NCBI RefSeq assembly: GCF_020510425.1
Contig: NZ_JAHBAH010000001.1
Coordinates: 2,523,001 to 2,587,000, forward strand
Reading direction: 5' to 3'
DNA from: Quatrionicoccus australiensis
GTDB lineage: Bacteria > Pseudomonadota > Gammaproteobacteria > Burkholderiales > Rhodocyclaceae
DNA length: 64,000 nt
This document shows, in pieces, positions 17,152-48,082 of this stretch. The translations under genes were made by a program, and so were the position numbers. A model generated the notes under the pieces. It worked only from the letters and a program-made list of their open reading frames with translations. It did not search any database and was not told the DNA's origin. Positions within the stretch are counted from its first letter, which is position 1, and every line of letters starts with the position of its first letter.

Positions 17152-17817
17152 GTTCGTACTCCAGACACACTTATTGATGCGGGCTATGCCAGAAAGCTGG
17201 TTTGCGATGCTGCTTGGTGACAGGTATTGATATGCCGAGGTCGCCAAGAGGTGTTTCATATTGTACAAATAAAATGAAACACTGGGTTTCAATTTATTCA
17301 AATAGTATTCTTTTTTTTGTTGGGTTGGACTCGGGGTGCGGTGATTTTTTCGTGCGAAGTGTTGAGGTTTTTTGGTTAAGCAAGGAAGTGGGAGGCGATG
17401 GGGTTTCCTTGAGCCCCTTCCTTTTGTCCGCCCTTGCCGCTCTTGGTTGACATGTCATGTGCGCGGGAAGTGGCCGGGAAGTGCCTTTGGCGTTGGTGTT
17501 TGGCCAAGTCGGCGTGCCGTCCATTGTCTGGATTCAAGGCGGGATTTGAGTTGCCAACACCGTGGTGCGATGCCCGGTACGGACTTCTGTTTTGGTGGTG
17601 GCGAAATTACGAAAAATTGATATCCAATTTGATAGTGGCGTTACAATCAAGGATGTCGGCATTCTGGTGCGTTGCAATTCTTGTATGGCCGGGAGACGAT
17701 GGATGTCGACTTGAGTGTTCGCGGGGCTGCCAGCCGTCGCTTTCGTGGGTACCCCGATGTTTGCCCTGCATGTGTTTGAGGGGGGGGCTTCCGACAACCT
17801 ACTGGATGATTATCGGC
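17152..17817. other. Gene-free AT-richer regulatory region between adhesin and response-regulator cyclase
   Basis: 666 bases without a convincing gene, with T-runs and visibly lower GC than its surroundings. It must hold the promoter of the adhesin (minus strand) and of the divergent response-regulator cyclase (plus strand). A 9-bp inverted repeat at 17251-17282 and a further GTTTC half-site are described separately. A weak plus-strand promoter-like pair, TTGATA (17617-17622) and TACAAT (17642-17647), has a long 19-base spacer. Short open frames here have low-complexity or basic translations and no ribosome sites. Confidence 0.6.
17251..17282 (-). promoter_or_regulatory. Inverted repeat GTGTTTCAT-N14-ATGAAACAC upstream of the adhesin
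   Basis: A perfect 9-bp inverted repeat lies 100 to 131 bases before the adhesin start codon, with TACAAT (minus strand) inside its 14-base spacer. The right arm overlaps a second inverted pair, GAAAC-ACTGG-GTTTC (17276-17290). This looks like an operator cluster over a promoter. The same half-sites occur in front of the small-peptide locus. Confidence 0.5.
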
Positions 17818-19512
17818 ATGGCTGAAGCGCTTGTGATTCATGGTGGCGTAACGGATCGCCCCAGTATCTTGGTGGTTGATGACACGCCCGCCATTCTTCA
17901 GTTGTTGCAGGTCTTGCTATGCGACGACTACGCTATCGTCACGGTTGATTCCGGTCTCCGGGCGGTTGAGGCTTTTGCCGGGAAAACCTTTGATCTCGTG
18001 CTCCTCGACCTGTTGATGCCGGAGATTGACGGCTTCGAGACGCTGAAGCGTCTCAAGCAATTGCCGAATTTCGCTTCGACACCGGTCATCTTCCTGACTG
18101 CTATGGATGACTTGGCCAGTGAGCGTTGTGCTCTTGAACTGGGCGCGGATGAGTACATCGTCAAGCCTTTCAAGCCAACGCTGGTACGGTTGCGCATCGA
18201 TAACCTGCTGCAGCGTGTGCATTTGCAGCGTCAACTCGAAATGGCTCTGGCCAGTGCCGATAAAGGGCTTTGGGAATGGGATTTGCGCAGCGGCCGGGTG
18301 AGTATTGATGCCCGTTGGGGTGAGCATCTCAGGCTGGTGCCTAATCAGACGAGTGGCGATCCCGTTCGATGGAAGGATTATTGCCATCCCGGCTGCATGA
18401 CCGTTATTGACGAGGCAAAAGCAGCTTACCTGGCGGGGCGATTGCCGGCTTTTGATGCAGATGTGCAATTGCTCAACGCGGATGGGCAGTGGGTCTGGGT
18501 CAATCTCTACGGCAAGGCTGTGATGACCTCGGCAGAGGGGGATTTTGCCCGGCTCACAGGAACTTACCGCAACATCGAGCGCCGCAAGCAGGTTGAGATT
18601 GCCCTCCAGAAAAGTGAAGAGCGTTTTCGTTTTGTTATGGATGCGACCGGAGAGGGAATCTGGGACTGGCAAGTTTCATCCGATTTGCTTGCTCACAATG
18701 CCTCGTTTTCCCGCATCCTGGGGATGGCGGAGGGCAACCTGGAGCATGCAGTCTCCTTTATCCAGTCGTTGATTCATCCTGATGATTTGGCATCGGTTAT
18801 GGGCTGCATGGCTGCCTGCCTGGATGAAGGCATGGATTTTGTCAGTGAACACCGGATGCGTCATGTGGATGGACACTATGTCTGGGTGGCGGAGAGGGGA
18901 CGGGTCGTCGAGCGAGGGGATGCCGGGCAGCCGTTGCGTGCCGTTGGCTCGTTACGTGATATCAGCGAGCGCAAGGCGATCGAGGCGGAGTACAAGCGCC
19001 TGGCCCTCTACGACGCGTTGACCGGCCTGCCCAATCGGCGCCTATTGGTCGACCGCTTGCGTCAGGCAATTATCCAGAATCGACGGAACAAGGAATGTGG
19101 TGTGCTGATGTTCATCGACATGGATCGATTCAAGCAAATCAACGACACCTTTGGTCATGAATCTGGCGATATGTTGTTGATTGAAGTAGGGCGCCGCCTG
19201 AGTTCCTGCATGCGGGAGACCGATACCGTCGCCAGACTGGGAGGGGACGAGTTCATCGTCATGCTGACCGAGTTGCCTGATGAGCGCAGGGTGGCCCGCT
19301 ACGATGCCGAACGGGTGGGTAACAAGATTCTTGATGTGCTGAATCAGCCGTACCAGCTTGGGGGAAATGTTTGTGAAAGTACTCCTAGTATTGGTCTGAC
19401 CTTGTTTGGCGGTGATGCGACGGAGCCTGTCGAGGCCATCATCAAGCGCGCCGATGGCGCAATGTATGAAGCCAAAATGGCTGGCCGTAACCGCCTGCGC
19501 TTTGTTACCTGA
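17818..19512 (+). CDS. Response regulator with PAS domains and GGDEF diguanylate cyclase
   Basis: A 564-residue cytoplasmic protein: a receiver domain (about 15-135, starting PSILVVDDTPAILQLLQ, with the phospho-acceptor in LVLLDLLMPEIDGFETL), two PAS/PAC modules (about 145-400) and a C-terminal GGDEF domain. The catalytic motif RLGGDEFIVM is intact, and RETD upstream fits the inhibitory site. It should make c-di-GMP when phosphorylated. The start at 17818 is preferred to a much longer frame from 17434, whose extra residues look non-coding; an ATG at 17806 is an alternative. It is divergent from the adhesin gene and overlaps by 8 bases the end of the convergent TolC gene, so it is a good candidate regulator of adhesin retention or expression. 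Confidence 0.9.
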   Translation: MAEALVIHGGVTDRPSILVVDDTPAILQLLQVLLCDDYAIVTVDSGLRAVEAFAGKTFDLVLLDLLMPEIDGFETLKRLKQLPNFASTPVIFLTAMDDLASERCALELGADEYIVKPFKPTLVRLRIDNLLQRVHLQRQLEMALASADKGLWEWDLRSGRVSIDARWGEHLRLVPNQTSGDPVRWKDYCHPGCMTVIDEAKAAYLAGRLPAFDADVQLLNADGQWVWVNLYGKAVMTSAEGDFARLTGTYRNIERRKQVEIALQKSEERFRFVMDATGEGIWDWQVSSDLLAHNASFSRILGMAEGNLEHAVSFIQSLIHPDDLASVMGCMAACLDEGMDFVSEHRMRHVDGHYVWVAERGRVVERGDAGQPLRAVGSLRDISERKAIEAEYKRLALYDALTGLPNRRLLVDRLRQAIIQNRRNKECGVLMFIDMDRFKQINDTFGHESGDMLLIEVGRRLSSCMRETDTVARLGGDEFIVMLTELPDERRVARYDAERVGNKILDVLNQPYQLGGNVCESTPSIGLTLFGGDATEPVEAIIKRADGAMYEAKMAGRNRLRFVT

Positions 19513-20968
19513 TTGCCCAAAGCCCGAGTTTGCCGATATTGGCAGCCAGTTTCAGGCGTGCCGTGTGCCAGTTGGATATTGATTTGATGCGCTGCTGTTC
19601 GGCTCCTGCGACGGCGCTTTGTGCGCTGAGAAGTTCGAGGATGTTGCCAACGCCGGCTTTGAAGCGCCCCTGGGCGACCAGGAAGGACTGGCGGGCGCTG
19701 GAGACCAGGACATCGGCAGCCTTCATGTTTTCATTTTCGGTACGCAGCGACTGATAGCTTTTCCATACTTCCAAGGATATCTGCTGTTCAAGGCGGGAGA
19801 GTTCGGCGGCTTTGATCTCGGCCTGTCCCTGTGCCGTCTGCGTACGGTAATTTCGGCCAAATCCCTCGAATAAAGGGATATTCATCTGTATGCCGAGACT
19901 GTTGTTGCGGTTGCTGATATCGGTTGGGGCGTAGCCGACCGCTGGCGGTTGATTTTCCTGTTCGGTGCGACCTAATTCAGCGGTCAGTGTCACGGTTGGC
20001 CGCCCTTCGGCCCGAGTTGCGGCGATCTTGGCGCGAGCAGCTTTGACTTCGGCTTGGGCTGCTAGCAGCGTTGGGTGATGTTGTTTTGCCTCTTCGATCA
20101 GATCCTCCGCAGGTTTGACAAAGGCAGTGTCAGGGAGGCCTTCACGTCGGCGCGGCAGCACCAGATTGGTGGTGGCACTAAGGCCCATGGCTGTGGCTAA
20201 TGTGCCTTGAGCATTTTTCAACTCGCCTTCGGCCGATACTCGCTCCAGGCTGGCTTTCGAGTAGGCGACCTGAGCCTGCAACTGGTCGGTGAGGGCGCCA
20301 ATGCCGGCTTTGTACTTCGCCGCGGCTGCATTGAAGCTTTCGCGTGCCGCGTGTTCTGCCTCGCGGCTGGCTTCCAGCACGGCCTGCGTGGTCTGGGTGT
20401 CAAAGTAGGCCTGGGCGGCGTTGACGAATGCAATTTGCAGCGCGGCATCGTGGCTGGCATTGGCGGCATCCAGCAAGGCCATGGCCTGATCCAGGTTGGC
20501 GCTGCGCAGGCCGAAGTCGGTCAGCACCTGGCTCATTTTCAGGCTGCCGCTACGCAGGTTGGGTTTGCTGTCAGGAAGGTTGTTGAAGACGGAATACGGA
20601 CTCTCCTCGCCGTAGCGGGTGACGTTTTTCTGCTTGCTGTAAGCCAGCACGCCGGCCACGGCCGGCAGATAGGCCGATTTGGCAACCCCGACCTGGGCCG
20701 TCTGCACCTTGGCGCCGGCCCAGGCGGCACGGGTCTGCGGGTTGTTGCACAGGGCGCGTTCAACCGCTTCGGGCAGTTCGAGCGGCTGGGCCGGCGGGCC
20801 GAAAACGCAGGGATCGCTGTCGTCGTCAGCATCGAGCATGTTCCCGGCAACCGAACCGGCGACCTTGCCGTGGGTCAGGAAGGGGTCGATGCCGCCCGCC
20901 CCGGCCTGGCCGAGCCAGACGGACAGCATGATCGCCAGACCAGCCCGGCGATAGCGGAAATCGCTCAT
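19505..20968 (-). CDS. TolC-family outer-membrane protein of the peptide exporter
   Basis: A 487-residue outer-membrane efflux protein with a signal peptide (AIMLSVWLGQAGAGG) and two TolC repeats. Typical segments are LPEAVERALCNNPQTRAAWAG, KYKAGIGALTDQLQAQVAYSK and the second-half RFKAGVGNILELLSAQSA. Its ATG overlaps the end of the ABC transporter gene by 4 bases (ATGA), so the TolC, ABC and HlyD genes form one operon and probably one trans-envelope channel. The short acidic stretch DADDDSDPC after the signal peptide is unusual but not diagnostic. Confidence 0.9.
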   Translation of the reverse strand: MSDFRYRRAGLAIMLSVWLGQAGAGGIDPFLTHGKVAGSVAGNMLDADDDSDPCVFGPPAQPLELPEAVERALCNNPQTRAAWAGAKVQTAQVGVAKSAYLPAVAGVLAYSKQKNVTRYGEESPYSVFNNLPDSKPNLRSGSLKMSQVLTDFGLRSANLDQAMALLDAANASHDAALQIAFVNAAQAYFDTQTTQAVLEASREAEHAARESFNAAAAKYKAGIGALTDQLQAQVAYSKASLERVSAEGELKNAQGTLATAMGLSATTNLVLPRRREGLPDTAFVKPAEDLIEEAKQHHPTLLAAQAEVKAARAKIAATRAEGRPTVTLTAELGRTEQENQPPAVGYAPTDISNRNNSLGIQMNIPLFEGFGRNYRTQTAQGQAEIKAAELSRLEQQISLEVWKSYQSLRTENENMKAADVLVSSARQSFLVAQGRFKAGVGNILELLSAQSAVAGAEQQRIKSISNWHTARLKLAANIGKLGLWAIR

Positions 20969-23130
20969 GCCCAGCCGCCTGCGTGCGCCAGTTGCTTGAA
21001 GTCGATGCTGCCCGGGGTGATGTCGCGGGCGACCTTGCCGTTGTCGAGAACGATGACGCGGTCGGCCGAGGCGATGGTTTCCGGCCGGTGGGCGACGATG
21101 ATGCGGGTGATGGCGAGGTTCTTGATCGCGTTATTGACCATGGTTTCGCGGGCGATGTCGAGGTGGCTGGTCGCTTCGTCGAGGAACAGGATGCGTGGTC
21201 GCTTGTACAAGGCACGGGCCAGCAGGATGCGCTGTTTCTGGCCGCCGGAGAGGGCGGTGCCCATGTCGCCGATGAGCGTGTTGTAACCCATCGGCGTTGC
21301 CATGATTTCCTCGTGAATGGCCGCCAGGCGGGCGCACTCCTCGATCCGGGCGAGGTCGGTCTGGTGGTCGAAGAAGCAGATATTGTCGGCAATCGAGCCG
21401 GCAAACAGCACGTCGTCCTGCATCACCGTGCCGACCATGCTGCGCAGCATCTCGATGCCGACCTGGTTGACGCTGATGCCGCCGATCAGCACGTCGCCCT
21501 CGTTGGGCTTGCGGATGCCGAGCATGGCGTTGATCAGTGTGGACTTGCCGCAACCCGAGGGGCCGATGATGGCGACCGACTCGCCGGCCGCGATCTTGAT
21601 GTCGACGCCGTCGAGCACCCAGGGCTCCTGGTCGGCATAGCGGTAGCGCAGGCCGGCGACTTCGATGCTGGCTTCGAGCGGCTGATCCTGGCCGCTGGCG
21701 GAAAAGCTCTTGGCGCTGGTGTCCTCCGGTTCGGCCAGCACGATGTCGGCGAGGCGTTCGCCCTGCAATTGCAGCATCTTGACCTCGACCACCTTGTCGA
21801 CGAGGGCGCTGACCCGGCCGTCGAACTGGTCTTTGTAGGCGCTGAAGGCCATGAAGACGCCAACCGTGAAATTGCCGTCGAGTACCAGCTTGGCGCCCAG
21901 CCAGATGATCAGCACACGTTCCAGGCCGAACAGCACGCCGTTGAGCAGGCGGTAGAGAATCTGCAGTTTCTGGCTGCGCAGGTCGGCATTGATCTGGTCG
22001 ACGAGCAGGGTCAGCCAGGTCGAGCGGCGCTCGTCCTGGCGCTGGAACAGCTTGATACTACGCACACCGCGCACCGTCTCGAGAAAATGGCTCTGTTGCT
22101 TGGCGGCGTGCACGATCTGTTCTTCGGTGGCATTGCGCAGCGGTCGGTACCATAGCCAGCGGCCGATCGCGTAGAGCACCATGGCGCCGACCGCGATCCA
22201 GGCCAGCGGCGGGCTGTAGAGGAACATCATGAGCAGCGTGACGAGGGTCATGGCGCCGTCGAGGATGCCTTCGACGAAGGTCGTGGTCAGCGTCTTCTGG
22301 ATATTGTCGATGGCGCTGAAGCGCGAGACGACGTCGCCGAGATGGCGTTTCTCGAAGTATTCGACAGGCAGGCGCACCAGGTGCGTGAATACATTGGCCC
22401 GCCACTGCACGTTGAGGGTCGTCGACATGTGCATGATGACCCACGAACGCAGCGTGCCGACGCCCTGCTGCATCAGCATGAGCAGGCCGAAGCCGACGGC
22501 CAGCGTGGTCAGCAGGTCGTGGTCGGCGGACACGATGACGTTGTCGATGACCCACTGCAGGAAGAAGGGGCTGACCAGGGCGAACACCTCAAGCGCCGCG
22601 GCGAGCAGCAGGATCTGGCCGAAGGAGCGGTAAAGGCCGGTGACATGGCCCATCAGTTCGCGCAGCTTGATGTGCTGCTTGTAGGTGGCCTTCTTGAAGC
22701 CGGTGTTGGGCCACAGTTCGAGGGCGACGCCGGTGAATTGCTTCGACACGTCGTCCAGCGAGAGCTTGCGCAGACCGTAGGCCGGGTCGTGGATGGTCAC
22801 GATATTGCCCTTGACCTCCTTGAGTACGACGAAGTGGTTGAAGTTCCAGTGCAGGATGCACGGCATGCGCAACTGCGGCAGGTCTTCGAGCAGCAGCTTG
22901 ACCGGGCGCGGCGCCAGGTTCAGGGCGCTGGCCATCTGGATCAGGTGGCCGAGCGTCGTGCCCTTGATCGAGACCAGGAACAGCCGGCGCATGGTCGCCA
23001 GGTCGGTGCGAAAACCGTGGTAGGCGGAAACCATGGCCAGGCAGGCCAGGCCGCATTCGGTGGCCTCGGTCTGCAGGATCAGCGGCAGCTTGCGGCGCAG
23101 GCCGAACGACAGGTGCTCAAGAAAAGACAT
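20965..23130 (-). CDS. C39 peptidase-containing ABC exporter (bacteriocin/microcin type)
   Basis: A 721-residue inner-membrane half-transporter that cleaves double-glycine leaders and exports the peptide. The N-terminal C39 domain has its full catalytic set: Q20, C26 (ATECGLACLAM), H99 (HWNFNHFVVL) and D115 (HDPAYG). This separates it from HlyB/LapB-type transporters, which lack the cysteine. The transmembrane domain (about 165-440) is followed by the ATPase, with Walker A GPSGCGKST, signature LSGGQKQR and Walker B ILFLDEATSHLD. It lies between HlyD and TolC partners, 24 bases downstream of HlyD, and two double-glycine peptides are encoded just upstream. Their leaders are the obvious substrates. 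Confidence 0.94.
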   Translation of the reverse strand: MSFLEHLSFGLRRKLPLILQTEATECGLACLAMVSAYHGFRTDLATMRRLFLVSIKGTTLGHLIQMASALNLAPRPVKLLLEDLPQLRMPCILHWNFNHFVVLKEVKGNIVTIHDPAYGLRKLSLDDVSKQFTGVALELWPNTGFKKATYKQHIKLRELMGHVTGLYRSFGQILLLAAALEVFALVSPFFLQWVIDNVIVSADHDLLTTLAVGFGLLMLMQQGVGTLRSWVIMHMSTTLNVQWRANVFTHLVRLPVEYFEKRHLGDVVSRFSAIDNIQKTLTTTFVEGILDGAMTLVTLLMMFLYSPPLAWIAVGAMVLYAIGRWLWYRPLRNATEEQIVHAAKQQSHFLETVRGVRSIKLFQRQDERRSTWLTLLVDQINADLRSQKLQILYRLLNGVLFGLERVLIIWLGAKLVLDGNFTVGVFMAFSAYKDQFDGRVSALVDKVVEVKMLQLQGERLADIVLAEPEDTSAKSFSASGQDQPLEASIEVAGLRYRYADQEPWVLDGVDIKIAAGESVAIIGPSGCGKSTLINAMLGIRKPNEGDVLIGGISVNQVGIEMLRSMVGTVMQDDVLFAGSIADNICFFDHQTDLARIEECARLAAIHEEIMATPMGYNTLIGDMGTALSGGQKQRILLARALYKRPRILFLDEATSHLDIARETMVNNAIKNLAITRIIVAHRPETIASADRVIVLDNGKVARDITPGSIDFKQLAHAGGWA

Positions 23131-23154: not shown

Positions 23155-24429
23155 TCAGAGCTTGCCGGTCAGGCTGAGCAGCGGTTCGAGCACCCATTCG
23201 TAGAGGTGCCGGGTGTCCTGCAGCACGTCTGCGTCGAGCAGCATGCCGGCCTGCAGGGCTTGCGGCTGGCCGTAGGCCGTGATGGTCTGGCTGTCGAGGC
23301 TGACATTGATGCGGTATAACGGCTCGCTGTTCTGGCCGTTCCCATTGCCACCGATATTGCCGAGGGCGGAAATTTCGTTGCTCGGCAGCGCCGTCTTGGC
23401 CACCGACAAGACCTTGCCGCGGGCGTGGCCGAATTTCTGGTAGGGATAGGCCTGGTAGCGCAGCAACACGGCATCGCCAGGCCGGATGAAGCCGACGGCA
23501 CGGCTTGGCGCGTAGAGTTGGGCCTGCAGCACGGCACCGGTCGGTACGATGCTGACCAGCGGCCGACTGCCATCGACGGCCTGGCCGACTTCGGCGATCA
23601 CGGCGGTGGCCGTGCCCTCGGTTGGCGCAGTGATGACCAGGCGGCGCTTGCCTTCGCTTTCGGTAAGCTCCTGGTCGACCGTCGAAATGCCGCGGTCGAT
23701 CTGCGCCAACTGGTTCTGGTGCTTGAACTGCAGGCCGGAGACTTCCTTCTGGCGTGTCGCCATTTCACGGCCGACGGCGATCTGCTCGCGCTCCATGCTT
23801 TGCAGCCGGGAGCGCTGGTCGAGCAGTTCTTCCTGCTTCTGCTGCACCTGTTCGCGCGAAATGTAGTCCTGGCCGAGCAGGCTCTGGTAGCGGGCGACCG
23901 TGTCTTCGCTGAGCTTCACGCGGCTGCGCTGGCCGTCGATCAGGTTGTCGAGCTTCTGCATTTCGGCAGCCAGGCCTTCGATGCGCTTGAGCAGGGATTC
24001 GCGTTCATCCTGTTGCAGGCGTCGTGTCTTTTCCATTTCTTCCTGCAGCGACAGGCGGCGTGACTCAACCTGATGGCTGATATTGGCCTGGATCGAGCCC
24101 TGGGTACTGCTCTGCCGTTCACTGGAGAGGACATAGAGAATCTGCCCGGCGCTGACGCTCTGGCCCTCTCTGACGTGCTTTTCGAGGACGACGCCAAGTT
24201 GCGGCACGTAGACTTTGACCAGGCCGGAGTCCGGCAGCAATTGCCCGATCACTGTGCTGCGCTTGGTATAACTGCCCCAGGTGAAAAAGATCACGACGAG
24301 CAAGGCGCAGCCTGTGGCAATGCTCGTGAGAACTCGATAACTGAGCGGGCGGATCAGAATAATGTCGCCCAAGGTCTTGGTTTGCTGGGCGCTGATTGCA
24401 GCGTGCCGAAAAAGTGGTTGTTCTGCCAT
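23155..24429 (-). CDS. HlyD/CvaA-family membrane fusion protein
   Basis: A 424-residue periplasmic adaptor linking the C39 ABC exporter to TolC. One N-terminal transmembrane helix (VLTSIATGCALLVVIFFTW) is followed by a biotinyl-lipoyl half-motif, a long coiled-coil hairpin (about 110-250, rich in Q, R, E and L) and a beta-barrel region ending GMLLDADVLQDTRHLYEW, typical of colicin-V type adaptors. It is transcribed with the ABC and TolC genes and follows the first small peptide gene after an 80-base gap containing a stable stem-loop. Confidence 0.93.
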   Translation of the reverse strand: MAEQPLFRHAAISAQQTKTLGDIILIRPLSYRVLTSIATGCALLVVIFFTWGSYTKRSTVIGQLLPDSGLVKVYVPQLGVVLEKHVREGQSVSAGQILYVLSSERQSSTQGSIQANISHQVESRRLSLQEEMEKTRRLQQDERESLLKRIEGLAAEMQKLDNLIDGQRSRVKLSEDTVARYQSLLGQDYISREQVQQKQEELLDQRSRLQSMEREQIAVGREMATRQKEVSGLQFKHQNQLAQIDRGISTVDQELTESEGKRRLVITAPTEGTATAVIAEVGQAVDGSRPLVSIVPTGAVLQAQLYAPSRAVGFIRPGDAVLLRYQAYPYQKFGHARGKVLSVAKTALPSNEISALGNIGGNGNGQNSEPLYRINVSLDSQTITAYGQPQALQAGMLLDADVLQDTRHLYEWVLEPLLSLTGKL

Positions 24430-24509: not shown

Positions 24510-24728
24510 TTAGAGTTTGATGCTGAGTTTGAGACTGCTTAACAGGTCGCCGGCCAGGCCGGTGACGCCGCTGACCAGGCTGCCAACCAAACCAACCACC
24601 GGGGTCAGGAGCGAGCCCAGGGCGAGGCCGAGGGTAAGGCCCAGGCTGATGCCGAGGACTTCAAGGGAGAGGCTGGTGCCGCCGGCGACAGCGGAAATTT
24701 CGGTTTTCTTCAGTGTCTGAATAGCCAT
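24510..24728 (-). CDS. Double-glycine-leader small peptide 1 (microcin/bacteriocin-like precursor)
   Basis: A 72-residue precursor starting at the internal ATG (24728), which gives a leader matching its paralog; a GGAG lies 11 bases upstream. The 17-residue leader MAIQTLKKTEISAVAGG has the hydrophobic pattern and terminal Gly-Gly of C39 substrates. The predicted 55-residue product is very hydrophobic, rich in Leu, Gly, Ser and Val, has no cysteine and ends in SLKLSIKL. It shares the LTPVVGLVG-type core with peptide 2 (LTPVLNLVG). Encoded immediately upstream of the HlyD/C39-ABC/TolC operon. Function is not known: a pore-forming bacteriocin, a signal or a surface/biofilm peptide are all possible. 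Confidence 0.82.
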   Translation of the reverse strand: MAIQTLKKTEISAVAGGTSLSLEVLGISLGLTLGLALGSLLTPVVGLVGSLVSGVTGLAGDLLSSLKLSIKL

Positions 24729-24751
24729 GATGTACATAACTCCATAGTGGT

Positions 24752-24777
24752 AAAAAAATGCCGCCGGTCAGCGGCGG
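24752..24777 (-). terminator. Intrinsic terminator between the two small peptide genes
   Basis: On the minus strand a CCGCCG/CGGCGG 6-bp stem (24777 to 24761, 5-base loop) is followed by CATTTTTTT (T-run at 24758-24752). It ends about 23 bases before the peptide 1 start codon, so transcripts from the peptide 2 promoter would stop just short of peptide 1 unless they read through. The stem is short, so partial termination is likely. Confidence 0.6.
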
Positions 24778-25041
24778 GTGATGCCTTTGGACGGGCATTG
24801 GGTCGCGGAGGGGGCTTCCTGGCAACAGGAGCTCGACTCACGTGAAAAGGACGACTGCGGAGTTGTTGTTGGAGCAACTTGGATGGGCATGTTGGCTGGC
24901 GCCGATAAGTTCCTGATGGCGGGGGGGCATGCAGGTGCAATCGTTTGTAATGAAGAAGGGGGCGATGCCGGTTTTTTTATTGGTAATGAATGTCTTGGTA
25001 TGTGTTTTTCTGTTTGGTTTGTTTGCAGCAAGCTCGGAAGG

Positions 25042-25080
25042 ACAGCGATGCGGAAAGGGTTTCAGGGGCCGCACCGCTGT
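25042..25080 (-). other. 12-bp stem-loop just after peptide gene 2
   Basis: ACAGCGATGCGG (25042-25053) and CCGCACCGCTGT (25069-25080) pair over 12 positions, with one G-U wobble in the minus-strand RNA and a 15-base loop. It starts 10 bases after the peptide 2 stop codon. No T-run follows, so it looks more like a 3'-end stabiliser or processing site than a classical terminator. The rest of the gap between the two peptide genes (24778-25041) holds no convincing gene. Confidence 0.5.
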
Positions 25081-25090
25081 CAGGCTGCTG

Positions 25091-25282
25091 TTACTTGAAC
25101 AGACCGCCCAGCAGACCACCCAGCAGGCCGGTCACGGTCGTCAGGATGCCGCCAACCAGGTTCAGGACCGGGGTCAGCAAGCCCAGGACCGGGTTCAGGA
25201 TGGAGCCGAGCAGACCGCCCAGATCCAGTGCGCCACCGGAAACAACGCTGACTTCAGACTTGCTAAGTTCTTGAATTGCCAT
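25091..25282 (-). CDS. Double-glycine-leader small peptide 2 (microcin/bacteriocin-like precursor)
   Basis: A 63-residue precursor. The ATG at 25282 is chosen because GGAG lies 8 bases upstream and the leader MAIQELSKSEVSVVSGG then aligns residue for residue with that of peptide 1 and fits the C39 consensus (L...E...VSGG). The predicted product is 46 residues, dominated by Leu, Gly, Val and Thr with LLG/LGG repeats and a terminal GLFK. It has no cysteine and a near-neutral charge. It is the first gene of the locus, with a structured 5' untranslated region and a possible promoter around 25440-25467. Together with peptide 1 it may be a two-component peptide. No immunity protein is recognisable beside it. 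Confidence 0.82.
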   Translation of the reverse strand: MAIQELSKSEVSVVSGGALDLGGLLGSILNPVLGLLTPVLNLVGGILTTVTGLLGGLLGGLFK

Positions 25283-25312
25283 GATTAAAACTCCATGATA
25301 GGTCATTCGATT

Positions 25313-25386
25313 GCCACCGGTTGGTGGCTTCTTATTGCCCGTTGCCGGGCAATTCCTTTGGCTCGGGGAGGCTGGCCTCCCCGAGC
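25313..25386 (-). promoter_or_regulatory. Three consecutive stem-loops in the 5' leader of peptide gene 2
   Basis: GCCACC/GGTGGC (25313-25328), ATTGCCCG/CGGGCAAT (25334-25352, last pairs flanking a 4-5 base loop) and GCTCGGGGAGG/CCTCCCCGAGC (25361-25386, 11 perfect pairs, 4-base loop). They lie 31 to 104 bases before the peptide 2 start. The strongest is GC-rich but has no T-run. The arrangement suggests a structured leader RNA controlling stability or elongation. Confidence 0.6.
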
Positions 25387-25439
25387 CGTATTTCTCACAA
25401 GATCAGGTAATGCCCTTGGTCTTTACTGAATTGTTGATC

Positions 25440-25962: not shown

Positions 25963-28095
25963 TTGCTGATCGCCAGGCAAGATGTTTTTTCTTCTTTTCT
26001 TGACTTGGGTCAGGAGGGTTTTCCGGGGCTTGTTTATCTTTTGATCATGACGACTATTGCTGCCCTGTTGTTTTTCCTGTTGGTCTGCTTTCTGGCTGTT
26101 CGTCGCCTGTCGCGTATCGAGCTGGCGCTGCAGCGCTTTGGCGAGGGCAATCCGGATAGCCGGGCCGGTTTGCGGGGCTGGGGCCCGATTGCACGACTGG
26201 GGATGCGTTTTGACCAAATGGCAGAATCGATGGCTATCGAGCGCGGTCATTTGGCTGAGAGCGAGGAGCGTCTAAAGTTCGCCTTGCGTGGAAGCGATAT
26301 TGGTATTTGGGACTGGTATCTGGAGGGCGGGCGCACCTACTACTCGCCACGTTGGAAAAGCCTGCTCGGTTACGCGGAAGACGAGTTGGTGGCGCACGCC
26401 GAAGAGTGGTTGAAGCGCGTTCATCCCGAAGATCTCGCGGTGGTCATGGATCGTCTCAAGGAGCACATGGCCGGGCAGAGCGAGTTTTTTGTCAGTGAAC
26501 ACCGTCTGCGCTGCAAGAATGGCAGCTATCTCTGGGTGCTCGAGCGCGGCGTAGCGATTCGTAACGCCGAGGGGGGGGCTGTCCGCATGGTTGGTGCCCT
26601 GTCCGATATTTCCCGGCGGAAGGCTGTTGAAGCCGCCTTGTTGCGCAGCAAGGAAGAATATCGCTCGGTAATCGAGGGGGTTACGCAGATCATTTTTCGT
26701 AGCGATGCCCGCGGTCGCCTGATCTTCCTGAATCCGGCATGGACCGAGTTGACCGGTTTCCCGGTTGGCGAGTCGCTCAACAGTGGCCTGGCTGATTTTA
26801 TTCACGGCGATGATCGCCTGCGCATCATGACCCTGTTTCGCGATACCGCAGAAGGGCGCTTGCCGACCTTGGCATGTGAGCTGCGTCTGCTCTGTATTGA
26901 TGGTCGGTCGCGCTGGTTTTCGTTGCATGCCCGTGCGGGGCTCGATGCTGAGGGTGTGTTGATCGTTGCCGGTGTGCTCAGCGATCTCGATGCGCAAAAG
27001 GCAACCGAAATGGCGCTTACTCGTAGTAATGGCGAGCGAAATGCCATTCTTTCATTAAGTCCGGATGGCTTTGTGCTGATCGACAAGGATGGGCGAGTGG
27101 CCTATGTCAATCCAGCCTTCCTGGCGATGACGCAGTTCGCGCCGGCCGAAGTGGTTGGCCTGAGTCTGCACTTGCTTGAGCGGCGGATGGCCCAGCTCTG
27201 CGACCCGGCTAAACCATTGCCGGCTTTTGCCGGCATGCGGGAGGGGCGGGCATATACGCTTAACCTGCAAAAACCGGCCAAACTGGTCATTCGCTCGCTG
27301 GTTCGCAATATTCCCAATGACATGGGGGGCTTGCATGGTCAGGTCATGTATTTCCGGGATATCACCCAGGAAAGCGAGGTTGACCGCATCAAGAGTGAGT
27401 TCCTGTCTACGGCTGCACACGAATTGCGGACCCCAATGGCCAGTATTTTCGGCTTCTCGGAATTGCTGCTGGCCCGGGAGTTCGATGCGGCGACGCAGCG
27501 TGACCTGATCCAAACGATTCATCGGCAGACCCAGAACTTGATCAACCTGGTCAATGAACTGCTCGACCTGGCGCGCATTGAGGCGCGCGGCGGCAAGGCC
27601 TTCAAGATGCAGGAGCAGGAGTTGAGTCCCTTGCTGCTCAATGCGCTGGCCGGCCAGTATGTGCCGCCGGAGACGCATCGCCTGGAACTCGATTTGCCGA
27701 AAAAACTGCCACGGGTCATTGTCGATGGCGAAAAGTTTCAGCAATGCCTGGCCAATGTGCTGAGCAATGCCATCAAGTATTCGCCGCGGGGTGGCGAGGT
27801 TCGGGTTTCTGTTAGCCGGCGTCAGGCAGGGCCTGGTGAGCAGGTCGGTCTGGCGATTCGCGACCAGGGGTTAGGGATGACGCCTGACCAGATCAGCCAC
27901 ATTTTTGACCGTTTCTATCGGGCTGATGCATCGGGGGCGATTCCCGGCTCTGGTCTGGGCATGTCCTTGGTCAAGGAAATCATGGACATATTCAATGGCG
28001 AAGTCAGTGTCAGCAGCCAGCTGGGCGAGGGTACCGAGGTTGTGCTCTGGTTGCCGGTGCCGCTGTCGGTGACAGCCGAGGCGGGAGTGTCATGA
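25963..28095 (+). CDS. Membrane PAS-domain sensor histidine kinase
   Basis: A ~710-residue kinase: one N-terminal transmembrane helix, a HAMP-like linker (RRLSRIELALQRFGEGN), three PAS domains (about 95-230, 230-345, 350-470), a HisKA domain with phospho-acceptor in TAAHELRTPMASIFGF, and a HATPase_c domain (NVLSNAIKYSPRGGE, DQGLGMTPDQISHIF, GSGLGMSLVKE). The start is uncertain. The TTG at 25963 keeps the membrane helix whole, while the first ATG (26047) begins inside it. Only one membrane helix and no periplasmic domain are visible, so sensing is probably cytoplasmic via PAS. It overlaps by 4 bases the CheY-like gene that follows and lies directly before the Tad pilus genes, suggesting it controls pili or surface attachment. 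Confidence 0.88.
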   Translation: MLIARQDVFSSFLDLGQEGFPGLVYLLIMTTIAALLFFLLVCFLAVRRLSRIELALQRFGEGNPDSRAGLRGWGPIARLGMRFDQMAESMAIERGHLAESEERLKFALRGSDIGIWDWYLEGGRTYYSPRWKSLLGYAEDELVAHAEEWLKRVHPEDLAVVMDRLKEHMAGQSEFFVSEHRLRCKNGSYLWVLERGVAIRNAEGGAVRMVGALSDISRRKAVEAALLRSKEEYRSVIEGVTQIIFRSDARGRLIFLNPAWTELTGFPVGESLNSGLADFIHGDDRLRIMTLFRDTAEGRLPTLACELRLLCIDGRSRWFSLHARAGLDAEGVLIVAGVLSDLDAQKATEMALTRSNGERNAILSLSPDGFVLIDKDGRVAYVNPAFLAMTQFAPAEVVGLSLHLLERRMAQLCDPAKPLPAFAGMREGRAYTLNLQKPAKLVIRSLVRNIPNDMGGLHGQVMYFRDITQESEVDRIKSEFLSTAAHELRTPMASIFGFSELLLAREFDAATQRDLIQTIHRQTQNLINLVNELLDLARIEARGGKAFKMQEQELSPLLLNALAGQYVPPETHRLELDLPKKLPRVIVDGEKFQQCLANVLSNAIKYSPRGGEVRVSVSRRQAGPGEQVGLAIRDQGLGMTPDQISHIFDRFYRADASGAIPGSGLGMSLVKEIMDIFNGEVSVSSQLGEGTEVVLWLPVPLSVTAEAGVS

Positions 28096-28457
28096 GTCGA
28101 CGTTTGATTTTGATCGTCGATGATCAGAGTGAATTACGTAAGCTGATTCGGATGACCCTGGAGCCCCTCGATTGTGATCTGCATGAGGCGGTAAGTGGTC
28201 TCGATGCCCTGGCCAAAGTGCGTGCTCTGCACCCCGCGGTGGTTATTCTCGATGTCATGTTGCCGGGTGGGATTGATGGCTATCAGGTGTGCCAGGCGAT
28301 CAAGTCTGATCCAAAAACGCAGCAGACACGGGTCATCATGGTTACCGCGCGTGGACAGAAGGCTGATATTGAAGAGGGGGGGCGGGTTATGGCTGATTGC
28401 TATCTGGTCAAACCATTCAGCCCGATGCAGTTGGTCAGGGAAGTTGATAAATATTGA
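28092..28457 (+). CDS. Single-domain response regulator (CheY-like)
   Basis: A 121-residue receiver domain without output domain. The acidic pair is in LILIVDDQSEL, the phospho-acceptor Asp in VVILDVMLPGG, the conserved Thr in VIMVTARG, and the Lys in CYLVKPFSPMQL. Its ATG overlaps the kinase stop (ATGA), so the two form a two-component pair. Lacking a DNA-binding or enzymatic domain, it must act by protein contact or phosphotransfer, perhaps on the HTH-REC regulator or another kinase in this region. Confidence 0.92.
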   Translation: MSRRLILIVDDQSELRKLIRMTLEPLDCDLHEAVSGLDALAKVRALHPAVVILDVMLPGGIDGYQVCQAIKSDPKTQQTRVIMVTARGQKADIEEGGRVMADCYLVKPFSPMQLVREVDKY

Positions 28458-28538: not shown

Positions 28539-28703
28539 ATGTGGCAAGCAGTCAAGAAATTCATTTCCGATGAAGAGGGTGCTACCGCGGTTGAGTACGG
28601 TCTGATCGCCGCGTTGATCGCCGTCGCGATCATTCTTTCGGTAACCGGCGTTGGCGAGAAACTCAAGTCTGTATTTATTGCCATCAAGGATGCGTTGCCA
28701 TAA
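28539..28703 (+). CDS. flp: Flp-family type IVb pilin
   Basis: A 54-residue prepilin too short for ordinary gene calling. After a short charged leader (MWQAVKKFISDEEG) comes the hydrophobic pilin helix starting ATAVEYGLIAALIAVAII, with the class-IVb cleavage context G/A and the invariant Glu at +5, followed by a short amphipathic end. GAGGAG precedes the ATG at good spacing. It is the main subunit of the Tad pilus, processed by the TadV peptidase encoded next. A single pilin copy is seen here. Confidence 0.95.
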   Translation: MWQAVKKFISDEEGATAVEYGLIAALIAVAIILSVTGVGEKLKSVFIAIKDALP

Positions 28704-28844
28704 ACCTGCCGATGCGTGTTTTTTGGTCATGTCTTGACTGAAGAAACGTGATGAAAATGATACTTGGGCGCAGGGGCGAGTTTGTTGAGGACTTTGCCCC
28801 GCCAGAACAACATGGCACCTGGCGGCAATGAGGGAACAGTAACG

Positions 28845-29351
28845 GTGATCGTGAGTCTGGTACTGGGCATTTGGGCTGGTGGTTTGGCGTATGAGGATTG
28901 GCGCTGGCGGCGATTACCCAATGTGCTTCTGCTTTGCGGTGTCTTGCTTGGTGCCATGCATTGGTTGGCTTTTGGTCTGATGCCTTTCGGTTGTGTACTG
29001 ACCGACGCGCTACTGGCCGGGCTGCTGGGCTTGGTGCTCTTCCTGCCTTTTTATGTCACGGGCTGGATGGGGGCGGGCGACGTCAAGCTGATCTCGGTCA
29101 TTGGCTGGCTGGGCGGATTCAAGGTGTTGTTCATGGTGGTCGTTTATGGCTCAGTGCTGGCCGGCATGTTGGCCGTCCTGCTGTTGTCGCCGGTTTGCCG
29201 CGACTACATGTCTGGTCGGCAGATCGATTCCCGACTGCGCGCTCGTATTCCGTTTGGTGCTGGCTTGGCTGTTGTGGTGATCGGCTTGGTGCTGGGCTGG
29301 CTTGATGCCGAGGCGGTGCTGAGCTGGTGGCCGGAGATGGCGCGTGCGTGA
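28845..29351 (+). CDS. tadV: TadV/CpaA prepilin peptidase
   Basis: About 168 residues, an A24-family aspartyl peptidase in the inner membrane that matures the Flp pilin. The two catalytic aspartates are in AYEDWRWRRLPN and GAGDVKLISVIG. The GTG at 28845 is chosen because GAGGGA lies 9 bases upstream; an ATG at 28812 is possible, and a TTG at 28764 is unlikely. Four to five hydrophobic segments are visible, the usual size for TadV. It overlaps the following TadE gene by 8 bases. Confidence 0.9.
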   Translation: MIVSLVLGIWAGGLAYEDWRWRRLPNVLLLCGVLLGAMHWLAFGLMPFGCVLTDALLAGLLGLVLFLPFYVTGWMGAGDVKLISVIGWLGGFKVLFMVVVYGSVLAGMLAVLLLSPVCRDYMSGRQIDSRLRARIPFGAGLAVVVIGLVLGWLDAEAVLSWWPEMARA

Positions 29352-29781
29352 GTCGCGATGTCCGTCGGCGGTGGCGCAGCGTGGGGCGGTAGCCATAGAG
29401 TTCGCCCTGGTGTTCGTGCTCTTTTTCATGGTCATGTATGGCATCGTTGCCTACGGGATGGTCTTTGCTGTTCAGCATTCGCTCACTCAGGCAGCCAGCG
29501 AGGGGGCTCGGGCGGCGGTGAGAGACGTCGGCGGTTTGCCGGAACGTATGGCACTGGCAAAAACGACCTCGGCAACGGCGATCGCCTGGCTCGGGGGGCG
29601 CGCGCCAGTGCCGCAGGTCACTTCGGCACCATGCGTGGCTACGTCGTTTGTTTGCGTCAAGGTGCTGCTGGTTTATGACTATTTGAATAATCCGCTCGTG
29701 CCGGCTTTGCCTGGATTGGGCATTGCGCTGCCGGCCCGCCTGACGGCCCAGGCGACTGTGCAGCTGGATGCGGTTTACTGA
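29344..29781 (+). CDS. tadE: TadE-family pseudopilin
   Basis: A 145-residue minor pseudopilin of the Tad pilus, starting at a GTG that overlaps the TadV gene. The TadE signature is clear: QRGAVAIEFALVFVLFFMV (cleavage site and hydrophobic helix) followed by HSLTQAASEGARAAVRD. The remainder is a short periplasmic domain containing two cysteines. Likely processed by TadV and involved in pilus initiation or maturation. Confidence 0.9.
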   Translation: MRESRCPSAVAQRGAVAIEFALVFVLFFMVMYGIVAYGMVFAVQHSLTQAASEGARAAVRDVGGLPERMALAKTTSATAIAWLGGRAPVPQVTSAPCVATSFVCVKVLLVYDYLNNPLVPALPGLGIALPARLTAQATVQLDAVY

Positions 29782-29817
29782 GTGGCGTTGCCGCCGTTGA
29801 TAGAGGGATAAGCGAAA

Positions 29818-30756
29818 GTGGGCAAGACTCAAAGAATTCTGGGCGGCGTGCTGATCCTGCTGGCTTTGGCGCTTGCCGCCTATGCCTGGGTGCTGAGCGA
29901 ACGTATGACTGCCGAACAGCATGAGGCCGAAACCCGCCTGCAGCCGGTCGTCGTCGCCACCGTACGCATTGCTGCCGGAACGACAATCCTCCCGGAAATG
30001 GTACAGCTGACCGGGCTGCCGTCGCGGCCGCCGGGGAGTTATGGCGATATCAAGGCCGTGCTCGGCAAACTCACGGCTTCCGATATTGCTGTCGGTGAAC
30101 CTCTGCTCCAAGAGCGGATTGAGGGGAATGTCCGTGCGATGCAGCAACGTCTTGAAGAAGGTGAGCGGGCTGTTGCGGTACGCGTCGATGACGTGATCGC
30201 TGTCGGTAATCGCCTGAATCCTGGCGATCGGGTTGATGTCTTCGTTACCCTGCGGCGTAACAGTGAGGAAATTCCTGATACCCAGTCCAGGTTGCTTCTT
30301 GAGAAGTTGCGCGTACTGGCTTTTGGCAGCAAGGATGCTGCTGCCACCAAGGACAGTGGTAGCCAGTTGCGCAGCAACACGGAAACCCCCAAAACGGCTG
30401 TGCTTGCTGTGCGCCTGGGGGATGTCGATAAACTTGCCCTGGCGGCCGAGAGTGGCCGGCTGCTGCTTGCCCTGCGGCCGCAGGAAGCCGTGCCGGATAA
30501 AGCGCCAGAGGGTGTCGCTGTTACGAGCGCTTCTCCGGCTCAGATTTCCGCTGCGGCGAAGGAGGTTGCGCCGCCCGTATTGACCTTGCGTGACCTTGTG
30601 GGCACAGGAAAAATTGGTCAACGGGGCCTGGGAGTGGGGCCTAATTCCCCTGCCGGCAAGGGCGTTGCTGCCTCGGGGAGCGCGGTAAGCGTGCTACACG
30701 GCCTGAAGGAAAAAACGGTGTACCTGAATGCGAAACAAAGCGAGGCCCGGCAATGA
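29818..30756 (+). CDS. rcpC: Flp pilus assembly protein RcpC/CpaB
   Basis: A 312-residue inner-membrane-anchored periplasmic protein with a GTG start. One N-terminal helix (ILGGVLILLALALAAYAWV) is followed by a SAF domain (VATVRIAAGTTILPEMVQ) and the CpaB C-terminal region (AVAVRVDDVIAVGNRLNPGD). CpaB proteins are thought to bind peptidoglycan and stabilise the secretin. It overlaps the secretin gene by 4 bases. Confidence 0.92.
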   Translation: MGKTQRILGGVLILLALALAAYAWVLSERMTAEQHEAETRLQPVVVATVRIAAGTTILPEMVQLTGLPSRPPGSYGDIKAVLGKLTASDIAVGEPLLQERIEGNVRAMQQRLEEGERAVAVRVDDVIAVGNRLNPGDRVDVFVTLRRNSEEIPDTQSRLLLEKLRVLAFGSKDAAATKDSGSQLRSNTETPKTAVLAVRLGDVDKLALAAESGRLLLALRPQEAVPDKAPEGVAVTSASPAQISAAAKEVAPPVLTLRDLVGTGKIGQRGLGVGPNSPAGKGVAASGSAVSVLHGLKEKTVYLNAKQSEARQ

Positions 30757-32147
30757 AAACAACGGCTAGCAAGCAACAAGGCAACGCTTGCCTGGCATGC
30801 AAGCTCGGATTCCGGTCGATCTTGCGTTTGGCTGCCCTGCTGCTGGCAAGCGTCAGCCTGGTGTGGCCCGCAATGACGCGTGCAGGCGAAGACAGCGGGG
30901 TCATCGAAATAGCCGCCGGAGGGCAGCATTTGCTGAAACTGGCCAAGCCGGTACGGCGTGTGGCCGTCGGCAGTGGTGATATTGTTGAGGCCCGTGTGCT
31001 GAGCGCCCAGGAAGTTCTGCTGCAGGGCAACCGCCCGGGTGAAACGACGCTGCTGGTCTGGCTCAAGGGCATGCCGATCGCGCAAAGCTACCGGCTGCAG
31101 ATCAACAAGGGGGTTGGTTCTTTGCCGAGCGATGCGGGGGGCGAGATCCGCCTGAAGGCAGCCGGAGATTTGAGTATCCTCGAAGGCCGGGGGGCTGATA
31201 TGCGCCAGCTTGAGGCCGCCCGCTTGGTCGCGTTGCATGCGGCGGGTGATACCAAGGGGGTGTTGCTCGATAAAACAACGTTGCCGTACAGCGGCGAGGT
31301 GCAGATCGATGTCAGGGTCGTTGAGTTCAGCCGCAAGATACTGAAGAAGGCCGGTCTGAGTCTGTTGTCCAACAAATCCGGTTTCACCTTTGGTACCTAT
31401 GCGCCGAGTAGTCTGACCAAGGTGCAGTTGAGCAATGGAGTGATCTCGTCGGAAGCTTCTCTGCCGATCAATCAGGCTCTGAATCTTGTGGTCGGCAATT
31501 CCTCGAACAGTTTGCTTGGTGTGCTTAGCATGCTGGAAGGCAACGGCTTCGTCCGCACACTGGCCCAGCCGACCCTGGTCGCCCAGAGTGGCCGCACTGC
31601 CGACTTTCTGGCTGGTGGCGAGTTTCCGGTGCCAGTGCCGCAGGCGCTGGGCCAGACGACGATCCAGTACAAGCCCTACGGCATTCGTCTGGAGGTGTCG
31701 CCGACCGTGCTCGCTGAAAACCGGATCGCGCTGACTGTCGCTCCGGAAGTCAGCGACCTTGATTTCGAGAACGCCATCACCATTAACGGCGTTACCCTTC
31801 CCAGCCTGACCACGCGTCGGGCGGGTACGAGTATCGAACTGGGTAATGGCGAGAGCTTTGTGATTGGCGGTCTGGTCAGCCAGAGCGTGATGAAGAACGT
31901 GAACAAGATTCCCGGACTTGGCGACATTCCCGTACTTGGTGCATTTTTCAAGAGCATCAGCCTGTCGCGGGAAGATAAGGAGCTGTTGTTCATTGTTACG
32001 CCGCGCCTGGTCCGGCCGCTGGCCGAGGGGACGGTGCTCGGGCCGATGCCGGGCGAAGAGAAGGCGAACTACAACCCGAGTTTGTGGGGCACCTTATTGT
32101 TGTCCGATGACGATGAGAATGCCCGGTATACCGGCTTTTCCAAATAA
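30753..32147 (+). CDS. rcpA: Tad secretin RcpA/CpaC
   Basis: A 464-residue outer-membrane secretin forming the pore for the Flp pilus. It has a signal region (LRLAALLLASVSLVWPA), a BON/pilus-family N domain (KPVRRVAVGSGDIVEA), and a secretin domain with VAQSGRTADFLAGGEFPVP and the C-terminal GDIPVLGAFFKSISLS and KELLFIVTPRLV motifs. Length is typical. No rcpB-type lipoprotein partner gene is present between rcpA and tadZ. Confidence 0.94.
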   Translation: MKTTASKQQGNACLACKLGFRSILRLAALLLASVSLVWPAMTRAGEDSGVIEIAAGGQHLLKLAKPVRRVAVGSGDIVEARVLSAQEVLLQGNRPGETTLLVWLKGMPIAQSYRLQINKGVGSLPSDAGGEIRLKAAGDLSILEGRGADMRQLEAARLVALHAAGDTKGVLLDKTTLPYSGEVQIDVRVVEFSRKILKKAGLSLLSNKSGFTFGTYAPSSLTKVQLSNGVISSEASLPINQALNLVVGNSSNSLLGVLSMLEGNGFVRTLAQPTLVAQSGRTADFLAGGEFPVPVPQALGQTTIQYKPYGIRLEVSPTVLAENRIALTVAPEVSDLDFENAITINGVTLPSLTTRRAGTSIELGNGESFVIGGLVSQSVMKNVNKIPGLGDIPVLGAFFKSISLSREDKELLFIVTPRLVRPLAEGTVLGPMPGEEKANYNPSLWGTLLLSDDDENARYTGFSK

Positions 32148-32168
32148 AAAAGCAGGGGCGGACTGATC

Positions 32169-33368: not shown

Positions 33369-33379
33369 GGACGCTGGCC

Positions 33380-34681
33380 ATGGATTTCGATTTCGCCCTC
33401 GGTACCGATCCGCACAGCGAGTTTCACCAGTCCGACGAGTTCCAGGACATCAAGGGGGTGATGCACCAGAAGTTGGTCGAACGCATCGAGGAACTGGGTG
33501 CAGATTTCGTTAATTGGTCGCTCAATGTCGTGCAGCGTTTCGTCGCCCAGGAGGTCGAGGATTTTATCGCCAACCACCGGGTGCCGCTCAACGCGACCGA
33601 CATCCAGCTCGTCGTCAAGGATCTGACCGACGAACTGACCGGCCTCGGCCCGCTGCAGGAACTGATGAACGACGACAGCGTGGCCGACATCCTGATCAAC
33701 GGCTACAAGGAAGTGTTCATCGAAAGAAACGGCCTGCTGCAGCGTAGCAAGATCCGCTTCATCGACAACAAGCACCTGATGCGCATCGTTCAGCGCATGA
33801 TTGCGCCGCTCGGTCGACGCGTCGACGAAGGCAGCCCGATGGTCGATGCCCGCCTGCCCAACGGCGGCCGGCTCAACGTGATCATTCCGCCGGTCTCGCT
33901 GAATGGTCCGGTGGTCTCGATCCGCAAGTTCCGCAGCCATCCGTTGCAGGCCTCCGACATGCTGGCCTACGGCACCTTGAATCAGGAAATGCTGGATTTC
34001 CTTGCGCACGCCGCCGAGATGAAATGCAACATCCTGATCAGCGGCGGCACCGGTTCGGGCAAGACCTCTTTTCTCAACATGCTGGCCCAGTTCATTCCCG
34101 AGGGCGAGCGCATCATTACCATTGAGGATGCTGCCGAACTGCAGTTGCTGCATGAACATGTCGTGCGCCTCGAGTCGCGGCCGGGTGGGCTGGAAGGTGT
34201 CGCTGAAGTCACCGCGCGTGACCTGTTGCGCAACAGTCTGCGCATGCGGCCGGACCGGATTATCGTCGGCGAGGTACGCGGTGGTGAAGCCGTTGAGATG
34301 CTGCAGGCAATGAATACTGGCCACGATGGTTCGATGTCCACAATTCACACCAATTCACCGCGTGAGTGCTTGCACCGCCTGGAAATGTTGTTGCATTTCG
34401 GCGGCTGGCAGGGCGGCGAATTCAACCTGCGCCGGCAGATTGTCGGCGCCATCAACCTGATCGTCCAGTTGGCCCGACAACCGAATGGCGCGCGGCGGGT
34501 GATCTCAATCAGCGAGCTCACCGGCGTTCAGGATGAAGTGGTAGCCATGCAGGAATTGTTCCGTTATGAACCGGTCATCAATAACGGTCGTGAAGGCTGG
34601 GTCAATACTGGTTGTCATCCCAAAACGCCAAAGCTCAAACGCTATACCGGTAATCCCCTTTTCCTGCTGGGTGGCCTGTGA
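33380..34681 (+). CDS. tadA: TadA/CpaF secretion ATPase
   Basis: A 433-residue hexameric type II/IV secretion ATPase powering pilus extension and retraction. It contains [22 protein letters not shown] N-terminal elements, Walker [15 protein letters not shown], an Asp box [12 protein letters not shown], a His box [13 protein letters not shown] and Walker [12 protein letters not shown]. Complete and collinear with CpaF. It overlaps the tadB start by 4 bases. Confidence 0.95.
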
Positions 34682-35598: not shown

Positions 35599-35610
35599 GA
35601 GGCGCCTGAC

Positions 35611-48026: not shown

Positions 48027-48082
48027 ATCGCTTTGACGAAGCGCCCTCTCGCCCATTTATCCGATCCGCAAGGGAGTCAGTC

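Follow-up and report, generated by a model that had tools for sequence, protein, structure and literature searches.

A family of double-glycine hydrophobic peptides with its own C39 exporter is linked to Tad pilus loci and may serve in adhesion

Peptides with a double-glycine (GG) leader are classically bacteriocins, and small GG peptides of Gram-negative bacteria are commonly assumed to be such; a source has labelled two relatives of the peptides studied here 'Bacteriocin'. The 64,000-nucleotide stretch of DNA analyzed here (the window), which lies within one contig of a 4.31-Mb genome (G000), encodes two GG precursors, pep1 and pep2, together with a C39-type exporter and a Tad pilus locus (Table 1). 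This arrangement raises the question of what the two peptides do outside the cell, and whether a type I secretion system here feeds a pilus-based adhesion module. Relatives of the proteins encoded in the window are annotated as Azonexus, Dechloromonas, Sulfuricella, Thiobacillus and Gallionellaceae.

Table 1. Features of the window considered in this study
Feature	Position	Strand	Remarks
LapA-like giant RTX/Ig-repeat adhesin	8212..17301	-	Named by resemblance; neighbor in 4/9 loci
REC-PAS-GGDEF protein	17434..19512	+	Conserved neighbor, 4/9 loci
TolC-type outer membrane channel	19505..20968	-	PF02321 5.6e-55
C39 peptidase/ABC exporter	20965..23130	-	PF03412 6e-34, PF00664, PF00005
HlyD-type membrane fusion protein	23155..24429	-	PF13437 3.1e-13; TIGR01843 1.5e-36, below its curated cut-off
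pep1	24510..24728	-	72 aa from MAIQ; leader 1-17 (MAIQTLKKTEISAVAGG), core 55 aa
pep2	25091..25282	-	63-aa GG-leader precursor; leader 1-17 (MAIQELSKSEVSVVSGG), core 46 aa
Structured region upstream of pep2	25283..25380	-	Three predicted hairpins; z -5.7 vs shuffles
PAS-rich histidine kinase	25963..28095	+	Divergent from pep2
Response regulator receiver protein	28092..28457	+	Resemblance to REC part of 17434-19512
Flp pilin	28539..28703	+	PF04964 5e-18
Tad locus: CpaA, TadE-like, CpaB, CpaC, CpaE, CpaF, TadB, TadC, TadD	28764..37328	+	Named by sequence and order
TadG-type large minor pilin	38349..39989	+	C-terminal tail rich in LxPVLxLLG

A preliminary description of this DNA had reported two paralogous GG precursors with leaders of equal length, and both open reading frames were recovered. 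Each leader begins with MAIQ and is 17 residues long, ending in AGG in pep1 and in SGG in pep2, and the two precursors are 57% identical across pep2 residues 1-61. The sequence GGAG was located by eye 11 and 8 nt ahead of the ATG of pep1 and pep2, respectively. The products had also been described as Cys-free and near neutral, which agrees with cores that contain no cysteine and have calculated pI values of 5.7 and 5.9, GRAVY values of 1.39 and 1.43, and a net charge of 0 as counted by eye. The pep1 core starts with alternating Ser and Leu and also has an 11-mer part.

The minus-strand order of transcription is pep2, pep1, HlyD, C39-ABC and TolC. In the C39 domain, Gln20, Cys26, His99 and Asp115, which we take to be the catalytic residues, are present in the motifs QTEATECG, NHF and HDPA; the earlier view that these uncharacterized GG peptides have an exporter of their own is thus borne out by an adjoining C39-ABC protein with these residues and by HlyD and TolC on the same strand. 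The nearest solved structures, 8vp3 and 4ry2, are chains named 'ABC-type bacteriocin transporter'. Comparison with the related locus L031 gave 12 synonymous and 3 non-synonymous codon changes for pep2 (dN/dS 0.11), 24 and 27 for pep1 (dN/dS 0.37), 119 and 37 for HlyD, 155 and 55 for C39, and 148 and 106 for TolC. Because of this pattern of codon changes, the genes of the operon look translated and selected; purifying selection acts on pep2, and pep1 evolves faster.

Nine loci with precursors of the pep type beside an exporter were examined, namely the window, L019 (genome G006), L029, L031, L032, L059 (G097), L062 (G667), L064 (G355) and L066 (G415); L030 and L059 have identical peptides and were counted once. 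The C39 proteins of the eight other loci are 76-92% identical to that of the window, and the Gln/Cys motif, or at least the Cys, is kept in all nine, the His and Asp having been checked in the window copy only. A tree of 26 exporters built with FastTree puts the nine exporters of pep-type cargo in one clade (support 0.996), whose sister is the exporter of G042, which carries a different cargo. An apparent long TolC-type open reading frame in L032, L062, L064 and L066 was rejected as an overlapping-frame artefact, since tblastn matched C39 there across residues 1 to 700-720.

A search with pep2 returned 62 protein clusters at E ≤ 10, of which 31 had E < 1e-3, the top one being the cluster that holds the window's own protein. 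The profile A1, of 39 rows, gave 123 matches at E ≤ 0.01 among 8000 scored candidates. In the 39 sequences, leader positions A2, I3, V14, G16 and G17 are invariant and M1, E10 and S15 nearly so, and the conserved leader pattern is MAIQxLxKxEIxxVSGG. Core statistics were computed for 103 of 122 sequences, the remaining 19 being excluded because the leader pattern did not fit. These cores are 42-85 residues long and consist of 28.5% Leu, 23.2% Gly and 13.4% Val (65% Leu/Gly/Val); Trp and Tyr are almost absent (0.0% after rounding), Cys occurs in 9 of the 103, and net charge lies between -2 and +1 in 99.

The cores are strongly periodic. Identities between residues at lags 4, 7, 11 and 22 exceeded those of shuffled sequences (z = 24.5, 14.3, 22.5 and 10.9, respectively), and the spectra of Gly and of Leu/Ile/Val/Phe peak at 98-100 degrees. 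The motif GxxxGxxxG was found in 85 of the 103 cores, compared with a mean of 39.5 and a maximum of 57 in 200 shuffles; the shorter GxxxG, present in 101 cores, carries little weight by itself, the shuffles giving a mean of 94.1 and a maximum of 100. This periodicity suggests that the cores would form an alpha-helix that has a Gly face and repeats roughly every 11 residues in the pattern LLxPVxGLVGG; as judged by eye, family members differ in how many repeats they contain. An amyloid (beta) structure was also considered and is not favored because the period is about 3.65 residues, although the start of pep1 alternates Ser and Leu.

The peptides had no convincing match in Pfam, NCBIfam, PHROGs, PADLOC or the PDB: the best PHROG (E 0.017) is a family of unknown function, and the best PDB match (E 0.18) is a designed helical bundle. 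Among plasmids, pep2 had no match at E ≤ 0.1. Among the papers listed in searches of the open literature, none was about this peptide family, as judged by title or the start of the abstract, and none was found that joins Tad pili with both bacteriocins and GG peptides, tight adherence with bacteriocins and Dechloromonas, or C39 GG peptides with Rhodocyclaceae.

The preliminary description had named homologs without a nearby C39 exporter as evidence that would speak against it, and four such orphan precursors were found (L020 (L007/L020), L061, L063 and L065). Their genomes (G006, G667 and G355) all hold an exporter of the pep-cargo clade elsewhere, and for this reason the orphans were not counted as a refutation.

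A search for conserved neighbors of the family had been proposed earlier. In seven of the nine exporter-linked loci (the window, L029, L031, L032 and the loci of G097, G355 and G415), a precursor has a Tad gene no more than about 10 kb away; this linkage was visible in the first stretch fetched for each locus, and more Tad genes appeared where it was extended. None of 17 related C39 exporter loci with other cargo (L021-L028, L060 and L067-L074) had Tad genes; the comparison covered 9-19 kb per locus, five loci were extended further (G459 on a single side), and six of the 17 come from one genus. For the Tad locus of the window, the Pfam comparison covered Flp and TadG. Of the two loci outside the seven, the exporter contig of G006 is only 10 kb long and has a kinase fragment at its end, while a separate contig of the same genome carries window-like Tad genes and ends inside a histidine kinase; in G667, the Tad locus sits on a different contig from the exporter. 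Genes for REC-GGDEF and LapA-like proteins follow TolC in four of the nine loci (the window, L019, L031 and L032), and the orphan precursor L063 of G355 lies 104 nt ahead of a LapA-like gene. The true start of the LapA-like adhesin of the window is probably an internal MAQAQ.

The tie between this peptide family and Tad (Flp) pilus loci is new here. The Tad proteins of L029, L031, L032 and G097 are window-like (about 48-93% identity), and those of G355 and G415 are divergent (about 30-54% identity), so that the association spans two Tad types. Since the exporters of pep cargo form a single clade, part of the linkage may be due to a single cassette having been inherited.

The association was also seen across genomes. 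In a draw of 395 genomes from the family, the peptide cargo was present in four (G000, G667, G355 and G415), and TadG, which is uncommon in this draw, was detected at E ≤ 1e-8 in 12, three of which match the N-terminus only. All four peptide genomes were among these 12 (hypergeometric 5e-7 by genome and 0.001 by genus, kinship being ignored). In a draw of 300 genomes from the order, cargo was present in two (G000 and G097) and TadG in 16, both included, and among 60 relatives, where a single-sequence query was used, cargo was present in two (G000 and G006) and TadG in five, again with both included. TadG was thus present in all six distinct peptide genomes of the three draws. Ten genomes of the family draw that carry a sister cargo with a Pro/Cys tail were all absent from the 12 TadG genomes, and five of them, tested directly, gave 0/5. 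Five further database contigs appear, by indirect record matching, to hold both a peptide and TadG; here 42 peptide rows were compared with 29 TadG rows on contigs >10 kb, with TadG taken from the first 59 of 115 rows.

These counts followed inspection of the matches. The 15 matches of the family draw comprised four of this family, the ten with sister cargo, and G646, which was dropped as a match within a 1144-aa frame. Three of the five matches of the order draw were not counted: G042 (leader only, other core), G134 (other core) and G226 (a Sec-type repeat protein). Among the four matches of the relatives, G020 and G059 were not counted, being weak and within 342- and 632-aa frames. A scan of genome contigs gave at least four loci. 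A class-wide search gave matches in 8 of 369 genomes, and among the loci examined the pep family was found only in its own genome, G000; the loci of G1019, G903, G807, G989 and G966 had no precursor of the family, G807 carrying GG peptides with another core, and G796 and G919 were set aside because their table rows show stops. The distribution of the peptides is patchy. TadG genomes in which no peptides were detected include G337, G523 and G650, and G042 has TadG together with a different, unlinked cargo; the peptides are therefore not essential to Tad pili, and the profile may miss divergent peptides.

On this basis, the reading we prefer, at about even odds, is that pep1 and pep2 are secreted and serve as structural or surface peptides within a Tad-pilus adhesion module. 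As judged from the anatomy of the operon and from C39 biology, in which the pairing of leader and exporter is well established, the adjacent C39 system would read the conserved leader of both precursors, cut after GG and pass the cores through HlyD and TolC. The neutral, extremely hydrophobic products of 55 and 46 residues, presumably helical, should self-associate or enter lipid or hydrophobic surfaces because of their hydrophobicity, 11-residue repeat and glycine-zipper face. They might then be deployed with Flp/Tad pili and the LapA-like adhesin as matrix or cell-surface material that reinforces attachment or aggregation, perhaps under control of the local two-component and GGDEF proteins. 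A non-antibiotic role had been suggested earlier; it gains from the Tad linkage and co-occurrence and, in part, from the LapA-like and GGDEF neighbors, while the role itself is one that we infer.

The closest worked precedent for such a module is EbfG/PteB of Synechococcus elongatus. In the passages cited here, small GG-leader proteins (EbfG1-4), several per cluster, are described as secreted by a dedicated C39 transporter, PteB (PMC4997328, PMC9981879), and these proteins and the transporter are needed for biofilm (PMC4997328). The role described for EbfG is in biofilm, at the cell surface and in the matrix, whereas an adhesion role of the present peptides would be deduced from their surroundings; EbfG1-3 are reported to form amyloid (PMC4997328, PMC9981879), whereas the 11-residue period of the present cores is a helical one. 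The hosts belong to different phyla, and the comparison drawn here is one of gene content and role. Should the adhesion reading prove right, this family, with its more than 100 members, presumably helical glycine-zipper repeat, single exporter clade and recurrent Tad linkage, would join EbfG as a further example of GG peptides that work in adhesion; the lineages concerned are environmental ones, among them Azonexus, Dechloromonas and Sulfuricella.

The main rival is that the peptides are a two-peptide (class IIb-like) bacteriocin or class II microcin, which would insert by its glycine zipper and form pores in competitors, immunity being unlinked or intrinsic; we regard this as possible but doubtful. 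Class IIb bacteriocins and class II microcins have a GG leader, C39 export, often paired precursors, GxxxG motifs and cationic character. The present system shares the leader, the C39-HlyD-TolC operon and the Gly motifs, including the enrichment of GxxxGxxxG. Precursors are paired beside the exporter at five of the nine loci, side by side in the window, L031, L032 and G667 and flanking the operon on either side in G097, and the patchy distribution would also fit a bacteriocin. PF10439 (Bacteriocin_IIc) gave sub-threshold matches, with 14.5 bits for pep1 against a cut-off of 27.1, no match for pep2, and weak matches in 4 of 39 A1 members at E ≤ 0.1. Against this stand cores that are neutral rather than cationic and almost devoid of Trp and Tyr, a single precursor at four of the nine loci (among these the 10-kb contig of G006), the orphan precursors, and the linkage to a Tad pilus, which would be superfluous for such a peptide.

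Nor was the adjoining immunity gene that a bacteriocin would call for seen at the two loci compared. Between the window and L031, no conserved intergenic open reading frame of ≥ 25 aa was found on the operon strand, the best match having E 0.05, and the earlier statement that no immunity gene is visible stands for these two loci. This comparison also gave three pairs of short open reading frames with E < 1e-3; all run opposite to the operon, and two fall within the conserved stretch ahead of pep2.

A more specific relation to the pilus was suggested by the C-terminus of TadG, whose consensus, LLxPVxxLLDxLLxPVLxLLGIQLG, is similar to the peptide cores in its composition and in how its residues are spaced. 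In hmmsearch with a model of the peptide cores, four of four TadG tails scored above 1000 of 1000 shuffles, and the best match begins in the last 20% of the protein in 106 of 115 TadG homologues. Among 2084 hydrophobic windows, the 25 that scored best came from the peptides, from TadG tails and from a further two repeat proteins, but the fetched DNA from which the windows were taken is rich in Tad loci. The profile-profile comparison of cores and TadG tail by hhalign gave a probability of only 14.5% and thus does not confirm homology, and G038, a TadG genome in which no peptides were detected, shows the likeness too. The likeness is probably one of convergence and serves as a lead only. It is unlikely that the peptides are soluble counterparts of the TadG tail, exported by the type I system and docking through the LxPVLxLLG repeat on the Tad tip or on surfaces so as to tune grip; if this were true, a Tad pilus would for the first time have a peptide accessory dedicated to it. 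TadG-type tip minor pilins are pilin-like as described in the passages cited (PMC12075869, PMC12607857), and the TadG proteins here, at about 540-630 aa, are unlike the short cores. Longer proteins with LPV/TV-rich repeats, at L094 6916-7620 (G226) and L005 283-2178 (G059), also score with the peptide-core model; with signal-like or lipoprotein-like N-termini as judged by eye, these proteins are probably extracellular.

We consider it quite improbable that the peptides are self-directed, acting in autolysis, envelope permeability or signalling in the manner of the Neisseria Naps. The Naps are likewise GG peptides with a C39 peptidase, with non-antibiotic roles and no antimicrobial activity detected in the passages cited (PMC11798529), and in the window a histidine kinase and a response regulator adjoin the peptides. 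The Naps, however, are cationic, 16-36 aa long, and accompanied by the immunity-like napI and a FapF-like channel (PMC11798529), whereas the present cores are longer and neutral and have HlyD-ABC-TolC, with no genes of the Nap kind seen. In G355, a homologue of the window kinase lies at the distal end of the Tad operon; the kinase may therefore be part of that operon and need not sense the peptides. The present argument makes no use of a finding in Azoarcus BH72, where the supernatant still induced pilAB after a gene with a weak C39 motif had been inactivated (PMC3262810).

A contact weapon, in which the Tad pilus would bring the cell up against prey or competitors and the peptides would attack the membrane, comparable in logic to the Kil-type Tad pili of Myxococcus, is highly improbable: Tad pili can mediate contact killing (PMC12075869), and the Tad linkage and membrane-seeking sequence would fit, but the Kil paper does not use the word 'bacteriocin' and describes no GG peptides in the passages cited, and no toxin or immunity features were found at the present loci.

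Apart from the function of the peptides, the region upstream of pep2 (Table 1) is presumably its 5' untranslated region. Two of its hairpins show compensatory changes, with 3 of 14 pairs altered on both sides among four sequences (the window, L031, L029 and L059), and the hairpins perhaps act in mRNA stability or expression control. Near the peptides, Rfam gave one match only, far below its gathering score, and therefore no known riboswitch is present there. The histidine kinase region (25283-28095) matches its relative in L031 (862 aa) from residue 144 onward only; no N-terminal sensor part turned up ahead of it, and the sensor region of the window copy is therefore either different or decayed.

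The sister cargo mentioned above (L067-L074, at about 9-10 kb in most, and L021 6947-7135) has a MAIRELSSQEVQNVSGG-type leader, a short hydrophobic stretch and a Pro/Cys-rich tail, e.g. PAPTPCQPAPTPC, the tail in L021 being Pro-rich. It adjoins HlyD-C39-TolC genes, in fetched stretches without Tad genes. Elsewhere in the window, Guanidine-I and Guanidine-II riboswitches were found at 47887-48027 and 52278-52324, and by eye they precede transporter-like and carboxylase-like open reading frames.
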